Shown here: piece after piece, positions 4,328 through 13,279 of the stretch | How positions within the stretch are numbered: position 1 is the first letter of the stretch | Layout: every line of letters starts with the position of its first letter | Virus record (IMG/VR): IMGVR_UViG_3300046005_001844 | Location: 1-21,316 of that record | Length of the DNA stretch: 21,316 nt | Direction: 5' to 3' (one strand) | Source of the DNA: a virus | Notes under the pieces: model-generated | Databases searched by the model: none | What the model saw: the letters and a program-made list of their open reading frames with translations, nothing else | Told to the model about the DNA's origin: nothing | Position numbers and translations under genes: made by a program

Positions 4328-4716
4328 TAAATACCATCCCCATAAATAACTAATAATCTATCGTTATACCAAGGTGAATGTGTTGTATTTTGATCCCCAA
4401 CCCAAACACTTATTGTATCTCCTGATACAGACCAATCAATATTATCTTCGTATTTATAACTGCTTGGTCCATAAAACAAACCCGTAGCTACGCCATTAGT
4501 CCGCATGACTCTTCTTATATCAAATTTATAATTATTTGCAGTTAATCCTGCATAAGATGCTGAAACAACCCACGCATTAAAAGCACCTGGGTTTTTAGCA
4601 ACCCAAGCGCCTGTATTTTTAAGCAATGGTATCATTGCAACAACTCTCATTTGGCTACCATCTTGATGAAATCTAGTTATACCATTACCATCTTTAACTT
4701 TAATTCCATAACTCAT
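4327..4716 (-). CDS. Small tail-tip-associated protein, smaller paralogue
   Basis: A 129-residue protein starting MSYGIKVKDGNGITRFHQDG, followed by a beta-rich body with several Trp and Tyr residues (WVAKNPGAFNAWVVSASYAG, later TISVWVGDQN). It shares the N-terminal 'M-x-YG-[IF]-x-[VI]-K-[DN]' pattern with the 271-residue neighbour, suggesting two variants of one attachment module with different outer parts. Its ATG overlaps the J stop codon as ATGA, so it is translationally tied to J. Function is unknown; by position a tip or fibre accessory protein is most likely. Confidence 0.78.
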   Translation of the reverse strand: MSYGIKVKDGNGITRFHQDGSQMRVVAMIPLLKNTGAWVAKNPGAFNAWVVSASYAGLTANNYKFDIRRVMRTNGVATGLFYGPSSYKYEDNIDWSVSGDTISVWVGDQNTTHSPWYNDRLLVIYGDGI

Positions 4717-7700
4717 GCTAAATTACCTAATCTCACCCTTAAATGCCCAGATGAATCATAAACTCTTATGCTATTAGCATCCATTATCATGCCTGGGGAA
4801 GTTACCGCTCCAAAGGAATAACTACCCGTCAGGGCAATGGAGCCTATTTGAGCCGACTGTATAGCAGCGGGTCCTATATATGTGCTGATATTAGCTTGTG
4901 TCATTTGCGGAACAGCCCACGCCACGCCCTGTATGCCTTGCGGACCAGCGGGTCCTGTTGCCCCTTGAATTAAACTCCAAGCATAGTCAGCAGCAACGAC
5001 CGACTCAGTTGCGGTGGTTTTGTTAAACGCTAATCCTATATAAGTCATTCCTGTGGGGCTGTCGTTTAAACCAGCTCCAGCGGCAGAAGTTCCATACTTA
5101 ACCCAAGTATAAGTATTTGTTCCAGCTAGACCATTAATACCATCAGTTCCTTTGATTAAACTCCAGTTATAATCTGTATAAACAGTAGACTCAGTGATAA
5201 CAGTTTTATTATAAGCAATACCCATATAGGTTTTGCCAGCAGGTAAATCTGACATGCCTGTTGTTGGGGTGTCTGCATACTTAAGCCAAGTATAGAGATT
5301 GGTACCATTAGTACCATTAGTACCATTAGTTCCCGCTGAACCAGTTAAACCTGTTGCTCCAGTTGCTCCAGTTGCCCCTTGAATTAAACTCCAAGCATAG
5401 TCGGTAGTAATGACCGACTCAGTTGCAGTGGTTTTGTTGAATGCCAACCCAATATATGTATTACCAGTAGGGCTATCGCTAATGCCTGCGCCTAATGCAG
5501 AAGTTCCATACTTAACCCAAGTATAAGTATTTGTTCCAGCTAGACCATTAATACCATCAGTGCCTTTGATTAAACTCCAATCATAATCTGTGTAGATGGT
5601 TGACTCGGTGGCAACAGTTTTATTATAAGCAATACCCATATAGGTTTTGCCGGCAGGTAAATCAGACATACCTGTTGTAGTGGTGTCTGCGTATTTAAGC
5701 CAAGTATAAAGAGTGGCGCCATTAGTACCATTAGTGCCAGGAGAACCAGTTAAACCAGTTGCTCCAGTTGCCCCTTGAATTAAACTCCAAGCATAGTCAG
5801 CAGCAACGACTGATTCAGTTGCGGTGGTTTTGTTAAACGCTAATCCTATATAAGTCATTCCCGCAGGATTGTCATTAATTCCAGCGCCCACTGCTGAAGT
5901 GCCGTACTTAACCCAAGTAAAAGTATTAGTCCCATCGACACCCGCTATGCCATCAGTTCCTTTGATTAAACTCCAGTTATAATCTGTATAAACAGTAGAC
6001 TCTGTTGCTGTGGCTTTATTATAAGCAACCCCCATATAAGTTTTACCCGTAGGTAAATCTGACATACCTGTTGTAGCTGTGTCAGCATACTTCAACCAAG
6101 TATAAAGAGTGGCGCCATTGGTTCCATTAGTGCCAGGAGAACCATTAATCCCGTTACTACCATTTGCTCCTTTAACTGTGTATAAAGTCCAATAATCGGT
6201 TGCGTTAGCCCCACCGACAGAGTAAACAGGAACAAGTATTCCGGTAGTAGTTGTTAGACTTGATGTATGAGTTAATTTGCAAGACCAGCCATAGCCCAAC
6301 GTATCAAGAACAATATCTCCCGAAGCGTAAAGTGTATTTGTAGTCCAATTACCTCTATAAACGTTTCGAGTAGCACCATCTGCCGGTTTATTTGTGCCGC
6401 CAATATTTGACCAATCTAACGCATTACCTGATGCTAAAATAATATTACCAGCAGAATCTCTAATGCTTAATCCACGACTATCTATCTTGTCAGCGGTAAT
6501 CTTAGTGATATATGCGTTATTGATATAAACGCCAGCAGGAAATACGCTACCATCAATCGTAGTGGGTGTTGTCAATACTGAAAAGGGTACAATAGGTGCG
6601 GATGCTCCTGGTCCAGCGGGATTAGCTATTGAAAACTTATCTGCTCTAATGGCAAACGATGATGTAGTAACACCATTTGTGGTGTCACTTGCTAAACCAA
6701 AGCCAGACACATAACCATTGGCATCAATCTTAACCGTATAACTGGCATTCAAACCGCTGATGTTGGTTTGCGCCGCAACTAATGCCTGATTTGACGCTCC
6801 TGGAGCATTTCTACCAACAGCTAGCCAGTCAATACTAAAGCTATCACCTGATGCCGTTGTGCTACCAATATCTAATCGTAACTGTGTTACTGGATTGATT
6901 GCAGTTGTCGCCATCCACGCAGTCACATCTTTCAAGTTGAACTCAAGAAGTGCGCTACCGCCTATAACATTGAATCCAGCAGGGATGGTTATCGTCTTTG
7001 CCAATAGCCAACCACCTGTTGTTTTATAATATAGTGACCCAGCCCAGCCAGTTGTTCCCGCCAATCTATTAACTTTAGCTTTAATGATTGGATAAGTGCC
7101 TCCAACAATGGCTAACCCTGCTGGTGAAATTAACTGTGGATTTGCAGCCGTTGATGTGATTGTTACTGAACCAGTGTTTACCCACGTTAAGGTTGCATTA
7201 ACAGCCGTCCAACTTTCGACTGTTGTTGTGTAATACCATGTTTGAAATTGGTCAAAGCTACCTTCAGCTAGACTGAGACGGGTACCTAGCTCTGCGTTTA
7301 AAGCGGAAGAGCCTAACATGCCGTTAAGCGTTGTTACCATCGCTCCCGCTTCATCTAAAGTGGATGCTGTTACATACAGTGATTGCAATGATTCGTTACC
7401 CGAAGTATCGACTGTTTTTATCCAGAAGTAATACGGTGTAGAGGCGAAGTTAAGACCTGCAACCAAATAGTTATCAGCCCTTATTGAGGTTAATAGTGTT
7501 GCAGATGCTTCTACACTACTTGTTGCGCTCCAGCGAATATTGACACGATCAAAATCAATGTCCATATCTGCTGGGTATGTCCATCGCAATTGTATAGAGC
7601 GAATTAACGATACCGCTGTGAAGGTAGCAACAGCTTTAGGGGGTATAGACTTTCCAGCTATTGTCAGAGTTGCCGTAATAGGTGTTGTTAAAACACCTAA

Positions 7701-10313
7701 TAAATCCTGACCGGACACCTTAACATCTAAAATATCAGCTTCAGCCAACCCTTCTATATCAAATACAGGCACACTTACTTGTTGAACTACCCAGTTACCA
7801 GCTCCAGAAGTTTTAGTAACGCGGTAAGATACATTATAAAGTGAAGCTATCCCCTCCCACGAAACATGAACTTTACTACCAATAATACCAGGGGCAATGA
7901 AATAGGTACTTTCTTCTAAATGCAAATTGGTTAGAACCGTCACATAAGGTGGTGTTATGGATGTTTTTGGTTTTTCTAGCAGCAACCCAGATTCAATTGC
8001 GCCGAATTTACTCGGGTTATGTTCAACTGCTGTGACGGTAAACAAATCAGCATGTTTACCGTCTTGAGCTACAGAAAGCACTCGCGCCAGCATGGGTACA
8101 ACTTCGTCACTTAATACAAATAAAGCATTATCTATAGGGAGTGTTGTTAGTGCGGTCGTCCATGTTAGTATAGAAAATGAACCCGTTGTTTGCTGAATTA
8201 CACGCTGTACAAATGAACCATCCGGCATTGCAAGAAAGATCGATACTGAGGGTACAGCACTAGCGCCTAAACCAAGCGATAGAGTAACAGGTGCATCTAA
8301 AGTTACCGAAGTTGATGATGACGATAAGATACGTCCACCTGCTCTCTTTCCCACTTTAAAGGCATCACTAATTCTTATTATTTCACCAGGAAATAACAAC
8401 GATGAGTCCAATCCCACGTTAAAGGTAATAATGTTAGATTCATACTTTTCCGTGTAAAGTATCCATCGACCAACTCGCTGTGCTTGTCCACGACTAGAGC
8501 AACCAAAAGCGATTGTATCAAGCTTCTTAATACCCATAGAAGAGTTAACTAAGTCATGATCCTCAACGTACTCAACACGCTGTTTATAATTATAATCAGG
8601 GTCATTCCATGTGACGTTGACAACACTATGACGATCTTTTCTGGATGAACTGGCATAGCTAAACTCACCATTAACCACGTTAGCTTGGTTGAATACCATC
8701 GAAGGCGTTGCTGGCGAATCTTGCCTAAAGCAAACCATTCCGCCACTCCAGTATGCCATGCCTCTAAATACAGAGGTGATATCAGAGATAATCTTATAAG
8801 CTTCTGCTTGTGTTTGAATTTGCGTATTGATTGAAAAACGTGGCTCATAACCGCCAAATCCATCACTAACTGACTCATCACAATATTTACCAATGGTGTA
8901 CAGCATTGACTTGTCAACTTGTGAAGAGCTTAGATAATTACCAAGTCCGTAGCGTGTGTTGGTTAATAGATCATAAAGTATCCATGCTGGATTGCTTGAT
9001 ATAGCAGTAGTGAACCCACCATTCCATATACCTGTATAAACACCTGTTGACTTACCATCACCTGCTATAGCTATATTGTTAGGCACTTGTATATATAAAC
9101 CATTAACAAGGTAAGCGCGTTGTGGCACACTTGAAAATACGGTAGGGTCTAAACCAATTGTAACAAGTGCAGAGTTTGGGTAATTTAATTTGGTATCTGT
9201 TAACTCAACATAACTATCCAAAAATATTTTATTCATAATGGAGGCGGTCGTACTATCTGCAGTTCGCCTACTAACTCTTATAACATAACCAGTGGTGGCG
9301 GAGGGCAATGTCAACACTGTACTTCTTTGGTATTTGGATTTAGTTTTTCCTTTAATAGTGATGTCATCCCCAACAGGCGTAAACACACCACCATCTACCG
9401 CTATTTCATAGTAATATGACACCTCACTACCGTTAATATCCCCCGTAGTCATATTTTGCGAAGACAAAGCCGCAACACTGACAATAATGCGAACACGATC
9501 AACATTTAAATTGGTAATTGAAAATGTTTTTGAAGATAGCGTTGTTATTTCAACATTCGCCATATTATAAGGTGTTTCAACGCTTGCAAAATCAGGAACT
9601 ATATCTTGATTAGGGCTACCATCTCTTGAGTCGAAAGAAGTGGAGTCAAAATTGTACTGACCTGACTCACTTAGTAGCGCAACATTATTTAAGAAAATAG
9701 ACTCAGCGCCATTAACTAAACCCCCTATCTTGCCCTCGCCAATCAAATCAATAATTGCTATTTTAGATCTGGATTGCAGCGTATCAGATGCCTCTACAGC
9801 TTGTCTTGCGCCGCCGCCGCCGCCTTTTGCGCCGCCGCCGCCGGAACCTGTTATAACAGGGAAGCGATCTCTGTGACCACCATTATGAACGCGAATACCA
9901 TCAGCTATAAAAGTGTGATAAGGCTCTACAGTTAGATTGTAAACAACCTCTCTGCCAATAATCTCTTTGCTTTTAATAGGCAGTAAATGACCCATGCCGC
10001 TAACAACGGTATCGTGTCCTACAACTAGGTTTTGTATCTCGGCAAACGCATTGTACTGATTTAAAACCCAGTGATTAGGTGTGATGAAAATCTCACCATC
10101 CCAAAATTTGACCCGCATAATGGGTTGTGGGTCTAAATGCACATGGTGTTTAATAACTTTAGCAAGATGAAGATCGCCTCTTTCATCAAACGCTAAAACA
10201 CTGTCGCCCTCTTTGATAAGCTCAATGGCAATTGTCTTACCGTCTTCTAACTGAACTTGGGTACCCGCTCTAAAACAACCACCACCTGCACCAACTATTT
10301 TATCTTTAGCCAT
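4713..10313 (-). CDS. J: Tip attachment / host-specificity protein J with N-terminal Hint domain and C-terminal repeats
   Basis: A 1866-residue central tail-tip protein (lambda J is about 1130). Order: a Gly-rich start; Hint domain C13-N144; a Gly-rich linker; then the usual J beginning (SRSKIAIIDLIGEGKIGGLV, about 181-200) and the conserved J core to about 790. Next come fibronectin-like beta domains (about 800-990), a beta-sandwich (about 1010-1170), a DUF1983-like part (about 1180-1290, with NGYVSGFGLAS and TSSFAIRADKFSIANP) and a chitin-binding-like GNW..NTLYASGDIV segment (about 1318-1380). Three long repeats (1404-1796) follow, and the end is lambda-J-like (SSGHLRVRLGNLA). Its ATG overlaps the stop of I as TAATG, with AGGGG upstream. 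It should set host range and contact the receptor. The repeats and the Hint domain explain most of the extra length. Confidence 0.95.
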   Translation of the reverse strand: MAKDKIVGAGGGCFRAGTQVQLEDGKTIAIELIKEGDSVLAFDERGDLHLAKVIKHHVHLDPQPIMRVKFWDGEIFITPNHWVLNQYNAFAEIQNLVVGHDTVVSGMGHLLPIKSKEIIGREVVYNLTVEPYHTFIADGIRVHNGGHRDRFPVITGSGGGGAKGGGGGARQAVEASDTLQSRSKIAIIDLIGEGKIGGLVNGAESIFLNNVALLSESGQYNFDSTSFDSRDGSPNQDIVPDFASVETPYNMANVEITTLSSKTFSITNLNVDRVRIIVSVAALSSQNMTTGDINGSEVSYYYEIAVDGGVFTPVGDDITIKGKTKSKYQRSTVLTLPSATTGYVIRVSRRTADSTTASIMNKIFLDSYVELTDTKLNYPNSALVTIGLDPTVFSSVPQRAYLVNGLYIQVPNNIAIAGDGKSTGVYTGIWNGGFTTAISSNPAWILYDLLTNTRYGLGNYLSSSQVDKSMLYTIGKYCDESVSDGFGGYEPRFSINTQIQTQAEAYKIISDITSVFRGMAYWSGGMVCFRQDSPATPSMVFNQANVVNGEFSYASSSRKDRHSVVNVTWNDPDYNYKQRVEYVEDHDLVNSSMGIKKLDTIAFGCSSRGQAQRVGRWILYTEKYESNIITFNVGLDSSLLFPGEIIRISDAFKVGKRAGGRILSSSSTSVTLDAPVTLSLGLGASAVPSVSIFLAMPDGSFVQRVIQQTTGSFSILTWTTALTTLPIDNALFVLSDEVVPMLARVLSVAQDGKHADLFTVTAVEHNPSKFGAIESGLLLEKPKTSITPPYVTVLTNLHLEESTYFIAPGIIGSKVHVSWEGIASLYNVSYRVTKTSGAGNWVVQQVSVPVFDIEGLAEADILDVKVSGQDLLGVLTTPITATLTIAGKSIPPKAVATFTAVSLIRSIQLRWTYPADMDIDFDRVNIRWSATSSVEASATLLTSIRADNYLVAGLNFASTPYYFWIKTVDTSGNESLQSLYVTASTLDEAGAMVTTLNGMLGSSALNAELGTRLSLAEGSFDQFQTWYYTTTVESWTAVNATLTWVNTGSVTITSTAANPQLISPAGLAIVGGTYPIIKAKVNRLAGTTGWAGSLYYKTTGGWLLAKTITIPAGFNVIGGSALLEFNLKDVTAWMATTAINPVTQLRLDIGSTTASGDSFSIDWLAVGRNAPGASNQALVAAQTNISGLNASYTVKIDANGYVSGFGLASDTTNGVTTSSFAIRADKFSIANPAGPGASAPIVPFSVLTTPTTIDGSVFPAGVYINNAYITKITADKIDSRGLSIRDSAGNIILASGNALDWSNIGGTNKPADGATRNVYRGNWTTNTLYASGDIVLDTLGYGWSCKLTHTSSLTTTTGILVPVYSVGGANATDYWTLYTVKGANGSNGINGSPGTNGTNGATLYTWLKYADTATTGMSDLPTGKTYMGVAYNKATATESTVYTDYNWSLIKGTDGIAGVDGTNTFTWVKYGTSAVGAGINDNPAGMTYIGLAFNKTTATESVVAADYAWSLIQGATGATGLTGSPGTNGTNGATLYTWLKYADTTTTGMSDLPAGKTYMGIAYNKTVATESTIYTDYDWSLIKGTDGINGLAGTNTYTWVKYGTSALGAGISDSPTGNTYIGLAFNKTTATESVITTDYAWSLIQGATGATGATGLTGSAGTNGTNGTNGTNLYTWLKYADTPTTGMSDLPAGKTYMGIAYNKTVITESTVYTDYNWSLIKGTDGINGLAGTNTYTWVKYGTSAAGAGLNDSPTGMTYIGLAFNKTTATESVVAADYAWSLIQGATGPAGPQGIQGVAWAVPQMTQANISTYIGPAAIQSAQIGSIALTGSYSFGAVTSPGMIMDANSIRVYDSSGHLRVRLGNLA
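4926..5294 (-). repeat. J C-terminal repeat, unit III
   Basis: Residues about 1674-1796 of J. The unit contains an A half (YTWLKYADT..TGMSDLPAGK ... WSLIKGTDG) and a B half (YTWVKYGTS..GAG.NDSPTG ... WSLIQGATG), then GPAGPQGIQG collagen-like triplets leading into the conserved J end. It is the last and shortest of three tandem units. Its DNA shares long near-identical blocks with units I and II. Confidence 0.9.
5295..5708 (-). repeat. J C-terminal repeat, unit II
   Basis: Residues about 1536-1673 of J (138 residues). It has the same A half/B half build as the other units, then the longest Gly-x-Y linker of the set (GATGATGATGLTGSAG and GTN triplets). The linker DNA contains short tandem repeats, a likely source of length variation. 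Confidence 0.9.
5302..5328 (-). repeat. Three tandem 9-bp repeats coding Gly-Thr-Asn triplets
   Basis: The plus strand shows gtaccatta three times in succession (5302-5310, 5311-5319, 5320-5328), coding part of the GTNGTNGTN run at the end of J repeat unit II. The unit length is a multiple of three, so slippage would change linker length without breaking the frame. Confidence 0.85.
5709..6104 (-). repeat. J C-terminal repeat, unit I
   Basis: Residues 1404-1535 of J (132 residues, 396 nt). The A half starts YTWLKYADTATTGMSDLPTG and the B half starts FTWVKYGTSAVGAG; each half is about 50 residues, and GLTGSPGTNGTNG linker triplets close the unit. It is preceded by a further collagen-like run (KGANGSNGINGSPGTNG). 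Confidence 0.9.
9882..10277 (-). other. Hint (intein-like) autoprocessing domain inside J
   Basis: Codes J residues C13-N144 (132 residues, no endonuclease insert). Block A: CFRAGTQV, then IELIKEGDSVLAFDERG. Block B: FITPNHWVL with T78 and H81. C-terminal block: YNLTVEPYHTFIADG then RVHN, with the terminal His-Asn pair H143-N144. The next residue is Gly145, not Cys, Ser or Thr, as in A-type bacterial intein-like domains. Both borders are Gly-rich (GAGGG before C13, GG after N144), and the usual J N-terminus follows only after about residue 180. The catalytic residues look intact. Whether the outcome is splicing, N-terminal cleavage or C-terminal cleavage cannot be read from sequence. Confidence 0.93.
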
Positions 10314-11275
10314 TATACTGCCCCTGTTGTAAAGCTATAAGTTGATGTACCTTTGTATTTATTATTTTTCCAATCTTTGTAACCGCCTGATGGTACAACC
10401 ACAAAATAGGTTGTATTGGGTAGTAAATTATTGGTTGGGTTGATGGTTACATTTAGTGAATTGATGTTAGTTATCAAACTGGAGGCAATGATAAAACTCT
10501 CTACCACAGCGCCTGATTTAGTACCGGTGTGAATTCTTATAGTGCCAGTGCCTTTAACGATTGCTTCGCTAAAGGTTAAAACAATATTTGTACTTGTTGA
10601 AACGCCTGTTGCGCCAATAGCAGGACTATAATTTGTAATTGTTGGGGCGATTTCGTCTTCAGCCGCATCATCTATCGTTAAGGATGCTGAAATGGCATGT
10701 GAACCCACCAAGCAAGTACCATAAATTAATGGTACTGGTACACCCTGTGCGGTTGTATTGGCTGGACCATTAAAATAGTAGGAGGTCTTATCAACCCTTC
10801 CTGACGCATCAAGACCTCCTGTTTTAGGCATTGGTGTCAATACACCAATAATCCCCTGAACGATCATCCCAATACCACCTAGTATGGCAACACCTGCCGT
10901 GAATCCTGAGATTGCCATCCCTGCTGGTACTAATTGGGGTTGCAAAAAGACAATAGCGGCGATGATAATAATTACACCCAATATGATTGAACCATATTTC
11001 CCACTACCCATTAGAACAGGTGTAAATCTTATACTGACTATTTCACCTGTCATAAATAGTTCTTGCTCATTGACTTCGCTAATAACACCATTGCCGTATT
11101 CACAAGTGACTTGATAACCTTCATAAACCGTTGCGTTATCTCTAAGCCAGAATTGAAAGCTAGGCTCATTGCAACTAATCATACGCAATGCTTCGGCAGG
11201 AGAATCAACACATAAATCCCAGCGTTTGCCGAATTTCTTACCCATCGCACCATCTAAAATTACTGCTGTAGTCAC
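10313..11275 (-). CDS. I: Tail assembly protein I with C-terminal Ig-like extension
   Basis: A 320-residue protein, longer than lambda I (about 223). Residues 1-200 follow the I family: TTAVILDGAMGKKFGKRWDL, an early beta-grasp-like part, two hydrophobic segments (about 96-112 and 118-147), then KTSYYFNGP..TTAQGVPVPLIYG..LVGS. Residues about 209-318 form an extra domain (APTITNYSPAIGATGVSTST, then IVLTFSEAI, and TTYFVVVPSG near the end) that fits the SbsA/Big_5 Ig-like family. The start is GTG 11275-11273, overlapping the K stop as GTGA with GGAG 8 nt before it. A farther ATG at 11377 would overlap K by about 100 nt. Lambda I acts in tail-tip assembly next to J; the extension may be a surface decoration. 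Confidence 0.93.
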   Translation of the reverse strand: MTTAVILDGAMGKKFGKRWDLCVDSPAEALRMISCNEPSFQFWLRDNATVYEGYQVTCEYGNGVISEVNEQELFMTGEIVSIRFTPVLMGSGKYGSIILGVIIIIAAIVFLQPQLVPAGMAISGFTAGVAILGGIGMIVQGIIGVLTPMPKTGGLDASGRVDKTSYYFNGPANTTAQGVPVPLIYGTCLVGSHAISASLTIDDAAEDEIAPTITNYSPAIGATGVSTSTNIVLTFSEAIVKGTGTIRIHTGTKSGAVVESFIIASSLITNINSLNVTINPTNNLLPNTTYFVVVPSGGYKDWKNNKYKGTSTYSFTTGAV

Positions 11276-12042
11276 TCTGCTTTCTCCATAAATGATTGAT
11301 GACGCAAATGATGTGTTGTATGTTTTTGATAAAAGCCGCCACCGTAGACATCCGTTCTTGATAGACGACCCATGCAATGATGTAGAATTCTGTCATCGCC
11401 TATATAGACAGCGATATGATCGGTCACCGTTGGTGATATCTTTATCAGAAATAAATCACCATCAACCGCTTCTGCATCTAGTAGAGACACAAAGCCAGCT
11501 TTCTTGTAGCTATCAACCAACATATTGATACCTTGCTGTTCCCAGTCTAATAATTCAGGATAGCCTTCCGCTCTAAAATCAATAGTGATGGAAAACTCTT
11601 TCTGATAATAATCACGAGCTAAGGTGAAACAGTCTTTGATACCGTAGATATAGGGTCTCTCTAAATAGCCTTCTTCAATATCTTGAGGTGCTACATGCTC
11701 AATTTCACTAAAGACAAATAGCCCATCGTCGTTTGAATGAATAGCTATGATGAACCAGTCGACACCTGTTGCGTTACATGCCGCAATATCAGTCACAGAG
11801 GGTTCTGGTGACTCGTTTACATGCGAATGCCATATACCGTAGACTTCGCCGCTATCAAGATGCTGACGGTACTCTTCTGTCGAAATTACAAAGCGATGTT
11901 GTGGTTGATCGGCAATATTGTCACAACGCACCGCAACAAGCTTTTTACCGACTTTGGTAATGACACCGCAGGATTCATTAGGGTAGTCTTGCTCTGCGAA
12001 TTGTTTAATAGCAGATTCAATCTGCTTACCTAGCTTAGCCAT
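11272..12042 (-). CDS. K: Tail tip assembly protein K: JAMM protease plus NlpC/P60 hydrolase
   Basis: A 256-residue two-domain protein. Residues 1-125 are a JAMM/MPN+ metalloprotease domain: E23 in ESCGVI and a perfect H72-x-H74-x7-S82-x2-D85 motif (WHSHVNESPEPSVTD). Residues about 130-245 are an NlpC/P60 cysteine hydrolase with C138 (GIKDCFTLARDYY), H209 (TDHIAVYIGDD) and H221 (ILHH). This is the domain pair of lambda K, thought to act in tail-tip maturation and possibly local peptidoglycan cleavage during entry. The ATG at 12042-12040 overlaps the end of L by 8 nt; a longer reading to 12105 would be embedded in L. Its TGA overlaps the GTG of I. Both active sites look intact. Confidence 0.95.
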   Translation of the reverse strand: MAKLGKQIESAIKQFAEQDYPNESCGVITKVGKKLVAVRCDNIADQPQHRFVISTEEYRQHLDSGEVYGIWHSHVNESPEPSVTDIAACNATGVDWFIIAIHSNDDGLFVFSEIEHVAPQDIEEGYLERPYIYGIKDCFTLARDYYQKEFSITIDFRAEGYPELLDWEQQGINMLVDSYKKAGFVSLLDAEAVDGDLFLIKISPTVTDHIAVYIGDDRILHHCMGRLSRTDVYGGGFYQKHTTHHLRHQSFMEKAE

Positions 12043-13279
12043 ATTGCATGGCGCCTGGAAAACCACCATAAGGTAATGTTGTCGTTGTGCCGAATCTTGC
12101 CTCACAAGACGTTAAACGCTTGCCACACACATCAGTTGCTAATGTATAGACCTGTACATCAACGGCGTTGAATAATTTCGCTCCACCCGCATTAGGGTTA
12201 TAACCACATTCCGCTCCCGCATATCGCCACGGACAAGAATTTTGATGCACTTGTCTTGAGGGTAACATCACACCAATTAGATCGAATGCAGAAGCTAATT
12301 CCCACTCAATAACATAGCGCGTCTCGGACATTTTTTGGTCAATAAACCAGACATCATCAGGGTAGTGCTGATTAGGGTCGGCAGTTACATTCCAACTTGA
12401 CCCGACCTTTTCATAAGTAGTTGGCACTGATCCACTTTGTAAATGACCTCCCCAAATGTAAACCGTATCTCCAATAACGCCTGTGTTATTCGCTGGGTCA
12501 ATATAGACATTTATATTGGCAGCAGGGGTTGCTCCAAATGTTCCCGTTACCAAATAGCGCGTCCATGTCGCGGTAGGTGTTAAAGTTGCAGTTGCGATAT
12601 CGGTAATACCAGCGCCGTCTCTAATTCTTAGAACTATGTTCCCTGTTAATGTGCCTGCTTTAACATAGATAGAAAAGACGTATGCTTTACTGGCATGAGC
12701 GGTAGTTGTGTAGGTCTGAACTAAATAGGTATTAGTTAACGCGCTTCTGCTTAATGTATCGGCAGTAAGTGTTCCATCAGGTGCCAATATTGAATTAGCA
12801 ATAACAGTAGTGCCTGCTGATTTAACCCAATTAGCCTGAGTGAAATCTTCTGAGTGTTTTAATAAATTGGTTTTGATGAAATTAACTTCATCTAGGTATT
12901 TCGCAAAGGTTCTTTTACGAATTACTTTTGCACCGATTAAATCACCAAATTGAGATAAGGTTGCGCTAAAAGCCCCATCTGCATTCGCTAAGCGAATCTT
13001 AGGTCTAGGTAAGCTACCTACACTTCCCAATGAAAAACCTTCAGTCTCTATCGGTAGTGCAATGTAAGTCTTCCCCTGCCAAATAATTTCTGTAGATAAT
13101 TGATTTGTACCTGCATGGAAGTACATATAATTTGCGGTAATACCTGTTAGCGCACTTACATCTAACACATATAGCTCGATTAACGCATTAGCGGCTAGTG
13201 ATTGTATGTCACCTTTTATCTGACCCGTTGTAGAGTCTGATAAATCCATGACATTTGCAACGGTGCTGTCAGTAGCCAT
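12035..13279 (-). CDS. L: Minor tail protein L with inserted carbohydrate-binding-like domain
   Basis: A 414-residue protein (lambda L is 232). The N-terminal part (IELYVLDVSALTG ... RKRTFAKYLDEVNF, to residue 134) and the C-terminal part (from TADPNQHYPDDVWFID, about 299) are typical L. The C-terminal part keeps four Cys (C349, C358, C385, C392), matching the [4Fe-4S]-binding set known in lambda L; the first and last spacings (9 and 7) are as I recall for lambda and the middle one is slightly longer. Between them, about 160 residues form an extra beta-sandwich (NLLKHSEDFTQANW, APDGTLTADTL, then AYVFSIYVKAG), a pattern common in phage carbohydrate-binding or adhesion domains. The ATG overlaps the M stop as TAATG, with GAGG upstream. 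Confidence 0.94.
   Translation of the reverse strand: MATDSTVANVMDLSDSTTGQIKGDIQSLAANALIELYVLDVSALTGITANYMYFHAGTNQLSTEIIWQGKTYIALPIETEGFSLGSVGSLPRPKIRLANADGAFSATLSQFGDLIGAKVIRKRTFAKYLDEVNFIKTNLLKHSEDFTQANWVKSAGTTVIANSILAPDGTLTADTLSRSALTNTYLVQTYTTTAHASKAYVFSIYVKAGTLTGNIVLRIRDGAGITDIATATLTPTATWTRYLVTGTFGATPAANINVYIDPANNTGVIGDTVYIWGGHLQSGSVPTTYEKVGSSWNVTADPNQHYPDDVWFIDQKMSETRYVIEWELASAFDLIGVMLPSRQVHQNSCPWRYAGAECGYNPNAGGAKLFNAVDVQVYTLATDVCGKRLTSCEARFGTTTTLPYGGFPGAMQYG

Follow-up and report, generated by a model that had tools for sequence, protein, structure and literature searches.

An optional BIL-like Hint domain suggests that a phage tail-tip protein edits its own N terminus

Introduction

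A-type bacterial intein-like (BIL) domains, such as that of Clostridium thermocellum (2lwy), combine the Hint fold with Cys1, a TxxH motif and a C-terminal His-Asn, carry neither an endonuclease nor a nucleophile at position +1, and are placed in variable, noncatalytic stretches of non-housekeeping carrier proteins. To our knowledge, their native role is so far unclear. Here we describe a domain with these same features at the N terminus of protein J, the host-specificity or tip attachment protein of a phage tail, encoded in the IMG/VR virus record IMGVR_UViG_3300046005_001844, a stretch of 21,316 bases that we call the window.

Type A BILs are proposed to form a thioester and cyclize an Asn, after which the freed amine attacks the thioester, a route that splices without a +1 nucleophile (PMC4031507); “ligation without nucleophilic side chains” is likewise the title of a reference cited in PMC7664689. 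In Tetrahymena, the self-processing BIL2 domain of BUBL (6y75, 6tmm), which can release its N-flank, lies between ubiquitin-like domains, and isopeptide bonds have been reported (PMC8616854). On the phage side, the tail hub is one chain in T5 and is split into gpL, gpI and gpJ in lambda, with the N-terminal region of J at the split (PMC10721106), and this break has been described as a focus of hypervariability (PMC13243795). Our analysis suggests that the tip protein J of the window and its relatives edits its own N terminus before or during assembly, by means of a Hint module that near-identical phages lack.

Results and Discussion

Protein J carries a complete Hint domain without an endonuclease

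The window holds a minus-strand tail module encoding a tape measure protein, a minor tail protein, L, K (JAB + NlpC), I and J. Protein J belongs to the lambda J family: it matches phrog_31 (central tail fiber J) at 3e-251, FNIII-A_GpJ and Phage-tail_3 exceed their Pfam cut-offs, and residues 165-1235 match NF049904 (lambda_TipJ) at 2e-121, under that model's exception-level cut-off. The J body, from residue ~165 on, is common to lambda gpJ and to Hint-less relatives, and the Hint-less IMG/VR relatives also share the N-terminal motif IxG(A/S)GGG...K; what distinguishes the window J is the Hint domain. The features of its N-terminal part are as follows.

4713-10313, minus strand: gene J, host-specificity / tip attachment protein, 1866 amino acids (NF049904 lambda_TipJ, phrog_31, Pfam FNIII-A_GpJ and Phage-tail_3)
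10278-10313, minus strand: N-flank (“N-extein”), residues 1-12, MAKDKIVGAGGG, with the first IxG(A/S)GGG motif and Gly at -1 (motif kept in the family; equivalent to the N terminus of Hint-less J)
9882-10277, minus strand: Hint domain, J residues 13-144, without an endonuclease (Pfam/NCBIfam, PDB profile, AlphaFold and Foldseek, family conservation)
10275-10277, minus strand: Cys13, Hint residue 1, predicted nucleophile of the N-S acyl shift (Cys in 67/67 unique and 42/42 J-based copies)
10071-10082, minus strand: block B, T78-P79-N80-H81, the TxxH motif (TxxH in 42/42 J-based copies)
9882-9887, minus strand: His143-Asn144, predicted C-terminal cleavage residues (HN in 67/67 and 42/42 copies)
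9822-9881, minus strand: C-flank, residues 145-164, with +1 Gly145, the GGHRDRFPV linker and the second motif, ITGSGGGG (family conservation)

A reading made from the sequence alone had proposed a complete endonuclease-free Hint domain in this place, lying between two Gly-rich stretches ahead of the normal start of J, and had suggested a structural comparison with A-type BIL domains. All of this is borne out. The domain spans exactly 132 codons, from codon 13 (Cys), which starts at 10277, to codon 144 (Asn), which ends at 9882; C13, T78/H81, H143-N144 and the +1 Gly are present, as is block F (H133-T-F), and both flanks and the downstream J body are as described. Searched together with its flanks, the domain passes three Pfam curated cut-offs (Vint, 30.2 bits against 27; Hint, 29.8 against 29.7; PT-HINT, 27.9 against 27.7), TIGR01443 (intein C-terminal splicing region) is above its cut-off with whole J as query, and 51 of 51 family members have Hint-family matches. 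The best relative in the PDB is the BIL domain 2lwy, at 8e-5 for the domain alone and 1.1e-13 when searched as a family profile, followed by mini-inteins. An AlphaFold model built with 51 relatives has predicted local distance difference test values of 93-98 across the Hint, with low confidence in the Gly-rich flanks. Foldseek places BIL domains (6y75, 2lwy, 6tmm) at ranks 1-5 against the PDB, inteins coming after, and 2lwy superimposes with a root-mean-square deviation of 1.6 A and a template modeling score of 0.87 by target length. Together, the Pfam, PDB profile, AlphaFold and Foldseek results rule out a chance similarity. In the viral structure library BFVD, the best match to the model is A0A218MKA3 (1016 amino acids, “Putative gp62,” uncultured virus; 38% identity, 2e-14), possibly an unannotated J with a Hint.

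The domain shows every A-type BIL sequence feature that we tested, and on these features and ranked database matches we file it as BIL-like. It differs from the known A-type BILs in that its carrier is a structural protein of the phage tail tip, its location is at the extreme N terminus, with an N-flank of 10-15 residues, its +1 position is restricted to Gly or Ala, and the flanking host motif is doubled, with copies that change together. Class 1 mini-inteins (DnaB, RecA, gp41-1) share with it the fold and the residues for N-terminal and Asn chemistry; an ordinary class 1 intein is nevertheless ruled out by the +1 Gly/Ala, in place of Cys, Ser or Thr, and by the unclean insertion, which also lies elsewhere than at a conserved active site. 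The Hedgehog Hog/Hint domain likewise starts with Cys-Phe after a Gly and has Cys1 and TxxH, but the J domain has an invariant C-terminal His-Asn, a C-flank of 1700 residues and no sterol-recognition region, and the first two of these set it outside the Hog class. A polymorphic-toxin PT-HINT or pretoxin Hint is ruled out as well, since what lies downstream is the J body and no toxin.

The catalytic residues are conserved throughout the family

A domain search of IMG/VR, whose patterns included TPNHWV and GGGCF, yielded at least 573 related stretches, of which the best 80 were taken. At least 80 IMG/VR contigs carry the Hint, nearly all at the N terminus of J between two Gly-rich stretches. In the 67 distinct copies, C1, the C-F start and VHN are universal, the His-Asn having lain outside the search motifs, and the +1 residue is Ala in 43 and Gly in 23, one contig ending at the junction. 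We also picked loci through the J body, with no selection for the Hint, in three samples, counting presence only at loci with at least 450 nt upstream, as contig truncation can mimic absence. The Hint was present in 7/77, 44/74 and 24/72 loci, respectively. Cys1, TxxH (TANH in a few), the HTF of block F and His-Asn are all kept in the 42 distinct copies of these samples; either Gly or Ala stands at +1 in them, and Gly stands at -1 throughout (42/42). The conservation held in this resampling and is therefore not an artifact of the motif search.

By contrast with this spread in IMG/VR, a search of 50,697 records of cultured phages turned up no J with a Hint, even though 1,521 of them hold a J-like body. 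A sample of 369 bacterial genomes from the class to which the L090 genome belongs contained one carrier only, already known, and plasmid matches to the Hint were, judged by annotation, other Hint proteins. Two members of the wider collection are unusual. In L183, the Gly-codon run before the Hint (CFL) reads as Trp codons (RRWWWWRG) in the Hint frame, a frame shift within the repeat that reflects either misassembly or slippage along the GGT repeats. In L093, a Flavobacterium metagenome-assembled genome, a related Hint ending in VHN|GG occupies residues 561-690 of a 704-residue non-J open reading frame, with ~14 residues after the Asn.

The two flanks carry copies of one motif that change together

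The IxG(A/S)GGG motif of the J N terminus occurs twice in J proteins with a Hint, once on either side of it, and once in Hint-less J. Between the Asn and the second copy, nearly all members have a linker of GGHR or AGLG type, which is missing from Hint-less J. Among 94 distinct pairs of flanks, a GSK variant of the motif occurs in four (L026, L028, L048 and L307), on both sides in 4/4 and on one side in none. In the nearest relatives of L307 that lack the Hint, the motif has GAG or GSG. Conversion at the DNA level is an unlikely cause, because the serine codons of the two copies come from different codon boxes in L026 (TCT/AGT) and L307 (TCA/AGT). Under random placement, such pairing would be expected with a probability of 1 in ~3 million by a hand calculation; the real figure is weaker, as the independent events number just two to four.

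We computed the ratio of nonsynonymous to synonymous divergence (dN/dS) on disjoint sister pairs, using non-Gly codons for the flanks. Constraint is stronger on the Hint (0.12) than on the J body (0.24). The linker, at 0.13, is the most constrained flank. The N-flank, at 0.23 (0.10-0.46), is not detectably relaxed relative to the N terminus of Hint-less J, at 0.30 (0.20-0.42). An overlap with gene I is ruled out as the source of N-flank conservation at most loci: gene I ends at +1 or +4 nt, and in the majority of the relatives examined its overlap with J does not exceed 4 nt.

The Hint is gained and lost among close relatives

Over a tree of 117 J bodies, switches between presence and absence of the Hint number at least 10, with 6 forced by supported branches; among 99 close J proteins they number at least 13, with 8 forced. 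One case is a pair of twins, L261 with and L260 without the Hint, which are 91% identical in DNA over ~2 kb on each side of a ~0.42-kb gap; they agree in all of the first 39 nt of J, and a 15-bp direct repeat, GGTGCTGGYGGTGGT, bounds the insert. The L261 protein reads MSNNGWVRGAGGG, then the Hint (CFT...VHN), then AGLGAGAIQGAGGGGKGGGG, whereas L260 reads MSNNGWVRGAGGGKGGGAG. This protein comparison defines the insert as the Hint, a conserved linker and a second copy of the J motif. The joined flanks of Hint-bearing J thus hold an extra segment of AGLGAGAIQGAGGG type that is absent from Hint-less twins, and the insertion is not clean. Recombination in Gly-codon repeats is probably how the Hint comes and goes.

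This pattern bears on the question of why the Hint is there, as distinct from what it produces. One quite plausible answer, to which we give somewhat less than even credence, is that of a selfish or neutral mini-element that confers no benefit, is kept by Gly-codon-repeat recombination, and has conserved residues only because failed processing spoils J. As a statement about origin, it overlaps with both splicing and cleavage, and our confidence in it is not exclusive of either. The patchy presence among the 99 close J proteins and the insertion between direct repeats fit it, as do a few apparent exchanges of the Hint, such as L161-L259, in which the proportion of synonymous differences (pS) is 0.21 for the Hint and 0.42 for the body. 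Yet no endonuclease is there to drive spread, the insertion retains the linker and the second motif, and synonymous divergence of the Hint follows that of the body (r = 0.84), therefore pointing to mostly vertical inheritance.

A predicted self-processing of the J N terminus

We tentatively favor, at just short of even confidence, the reading that the Hint is an A-type-BIL-like self-processing module which excises itself and re-joins its flanks, some of the product being only cleaved. By analogy with the BILs, it would cut at Asn144 and between Gly12 and Cys13, and the pieces are probably re-joined. Whereas the anatomy, conservation, insertion polymorphism and motif doubling are properties of the sequences, the reaction chemistry and its products are deduced from BIL precedent, as follows. 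Cys13, aided by Thr78/His81, would convert the Gly12-Cys13 peptide bond to a thioester. Asn144, aided by His143, would then cyclize and free the C-flank with Gly145 (Ala in sister groups) at its N terminus. Finally, the unhindered alpha-amine would attack the Gly12 thioester, joining MAKDKIVGAGGG to GGHRDRFPVITGSGGGG... and expelling the Hint, with some product stopping at cleavage. An unhindered Gly or Ala amine would fit the type A BIL ligation route.

That C1, TxxH and HN are kept in 42/42 copies points to selection on both half-reactions, which is more in keeping with excision than with cleavage at a single end; taken with the constraint on the N-flank, it argues for an excision to whose product the N-flank contributes. 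The sequence-only reading had anticipated self-processing, which the family-wide conservation of all catalytic residues strongly implies, but its splice product needs correcting: it expected splicing to leave an ordinary J N terminus, while the joined J would keep the extra AGLG.../GGHR... linker and begin with two IxG(A/S)GGG motifs instead of one. Given its place at the hub break, an altered J N terminus could affect docking of gpL or gpI.

Several points weigh against this reading. Reviews describe the products of type A BILs as mostly cleaved (PMC4031507) or these domains as unable to ligate (PMC7765530). The flank dN/dS values rest on 10-13 codons per gene, a weak basis, with overlapping intervals, and N-flank conservation could reflect a role before processing. 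Moreover, near-identical phages have a Hint-less J, so that J as such can probably do without processing.

Cleavage, conjugation and structural alternatives

The main rival to excision and re-joining, possible though in our view somewhat less likely, is cleavage only: cyclization of Asn144 would free J with a new Gly/Ala N terminus, and the first 12 residues and the Hint would be discarded, either joined or cut at Cys13. The second IxG(A/S)GGG would then replace the first and restore an ordinary J N terminus, making the Hint a removable cap that delays tip assembly. The product, starting with GGHRDRFPVITGSGGGG or AGLGAGAIQGAGGGGKGGG, closely resembles Hint-less N termini such as MSNNGWVRGAGGGKGGG, and C-terminal cleavage alone would, on these sequences, give a more ordinary-looking J N terminus than splicing. 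The strong constraint on the post-Asn linker is in line with this, and BILs without a +1 nucleophile yield mainly cleaved products (PMC7664689; PMC4031507). Cleavage only leaves unexplained, however, both the constraint on the N-flank motif and its tracking of the second copy, and an invariant Cys1 and TxxH are unexpected if the Asn reaction alone matters.

A conjugation, in which a lysine or the N-terminal amine of another tail protein attacks the Gly12 thioester so that the J N-terminal peptide is transferred or the tip crosslinked, appears unlikely. Tetrahymena BIL2, among the closest folds, is reported to transfer a ubiquitin-like domain onto lysines (PMC8616854), and J has a constrained N-flank with Gly-Gly-Gly at its end, both half-reactions being conserved. 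However, the J N-flank is a short peptide of just ~10-15 residues, nothing in the data indicates an acceptor or gives positive evidence, and the Hint-bearing and Hint-less twins are collinear and ~91% identical on both sides, leaving no room for a dedicated partner gene in the stretch compared. Crosslinking to another tail-tip protein, which the earlier reading had raised as a purpose, gained nothing specific in support. A particular form of it, in which the Hint passes the J motif as a thioester to a lysine or the N terminus of the adjoining tip subunit, as an ATP-free, ubiquitin-like conjugation locking or timing the tip, with the doubled motif serving as tag and retained copy, is more improbable still. 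An inactive Hint decorating the tail tip can practically be set aside: the N termini of lambda-like hub J proteins are a known place for variable extra domains (PMC13243795), but the catalytic residues are invariant in 42/42 copies and the J body is under weaker constraint than the Hint.

Returning to self-processing, its class of chemistry is already known. The open-access literature that we searched gave no description of a Hint in J and no report of the Hint as a recurrent, optional part of the tail-tip J with a doubled, co-changing motif. Should the domain prove active, it would provide a widespread example of a structural protein of the virion that is edited by an intein-like domain. Its carrier is a machine that is well understood, and nearly identical phages exist that have or lack the Hint, so that its role can be tested directly. 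Sharp predictions of the products follow from the restriction of +1 to Gly/Ala, from the doubled motif whose copies change together and from the conserved GGHR/AGLG linker. Ligation by so compact a Hint, with no side-chain nucleophile, would if confirmed be useful in protein engineering.

Neighboring genes and other features of the window

Upstream of J on the same strand lie three further tail genes.

10313-11377, minus strand: gene I, tail assembly / plug protein, directly upstream of J (phrog_32, 6e-46)
11272-12105, minus strand: gene K, JAB + NlpC/P60 (Pfam Prok-JAB and NLPC_P60; phrog_30)
12035-13279, minus strand: gene L, hub / Fe-S protein, with an extra domain between its two halves (TIGR01600 in two stretches; NF048003)

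In the window, the stop codon of gene I and the start codon of J have one base in common. The gene I homologue ends in a Big_5 immunoglobulin-like domain (PF13205, 6e-19) that lies outside its phrog_32 match. In gene L, the Phage_tail_L match is interrupted by an inserted domain, residues 137-289, matching NF048003 (phage head spike fiber / GTA, that is, gene transfer agent, spike fiber domain), and four Cys are visible in the C-terminal Fe-S part of its translation. The C-terminal part of J contains, at 4953-6172, three tandem copies of a ~396-bp unit with 82% matches, in which collagen-like Gly-x-x runs alternate with YTWLKYAD/YTWVKYGT modules. Between the tail genes and a lysozyme gene, a metallophosphatase (PF00149) is encoded at 1654-2946; its residues 82-133 weakly match HNH_repeat.

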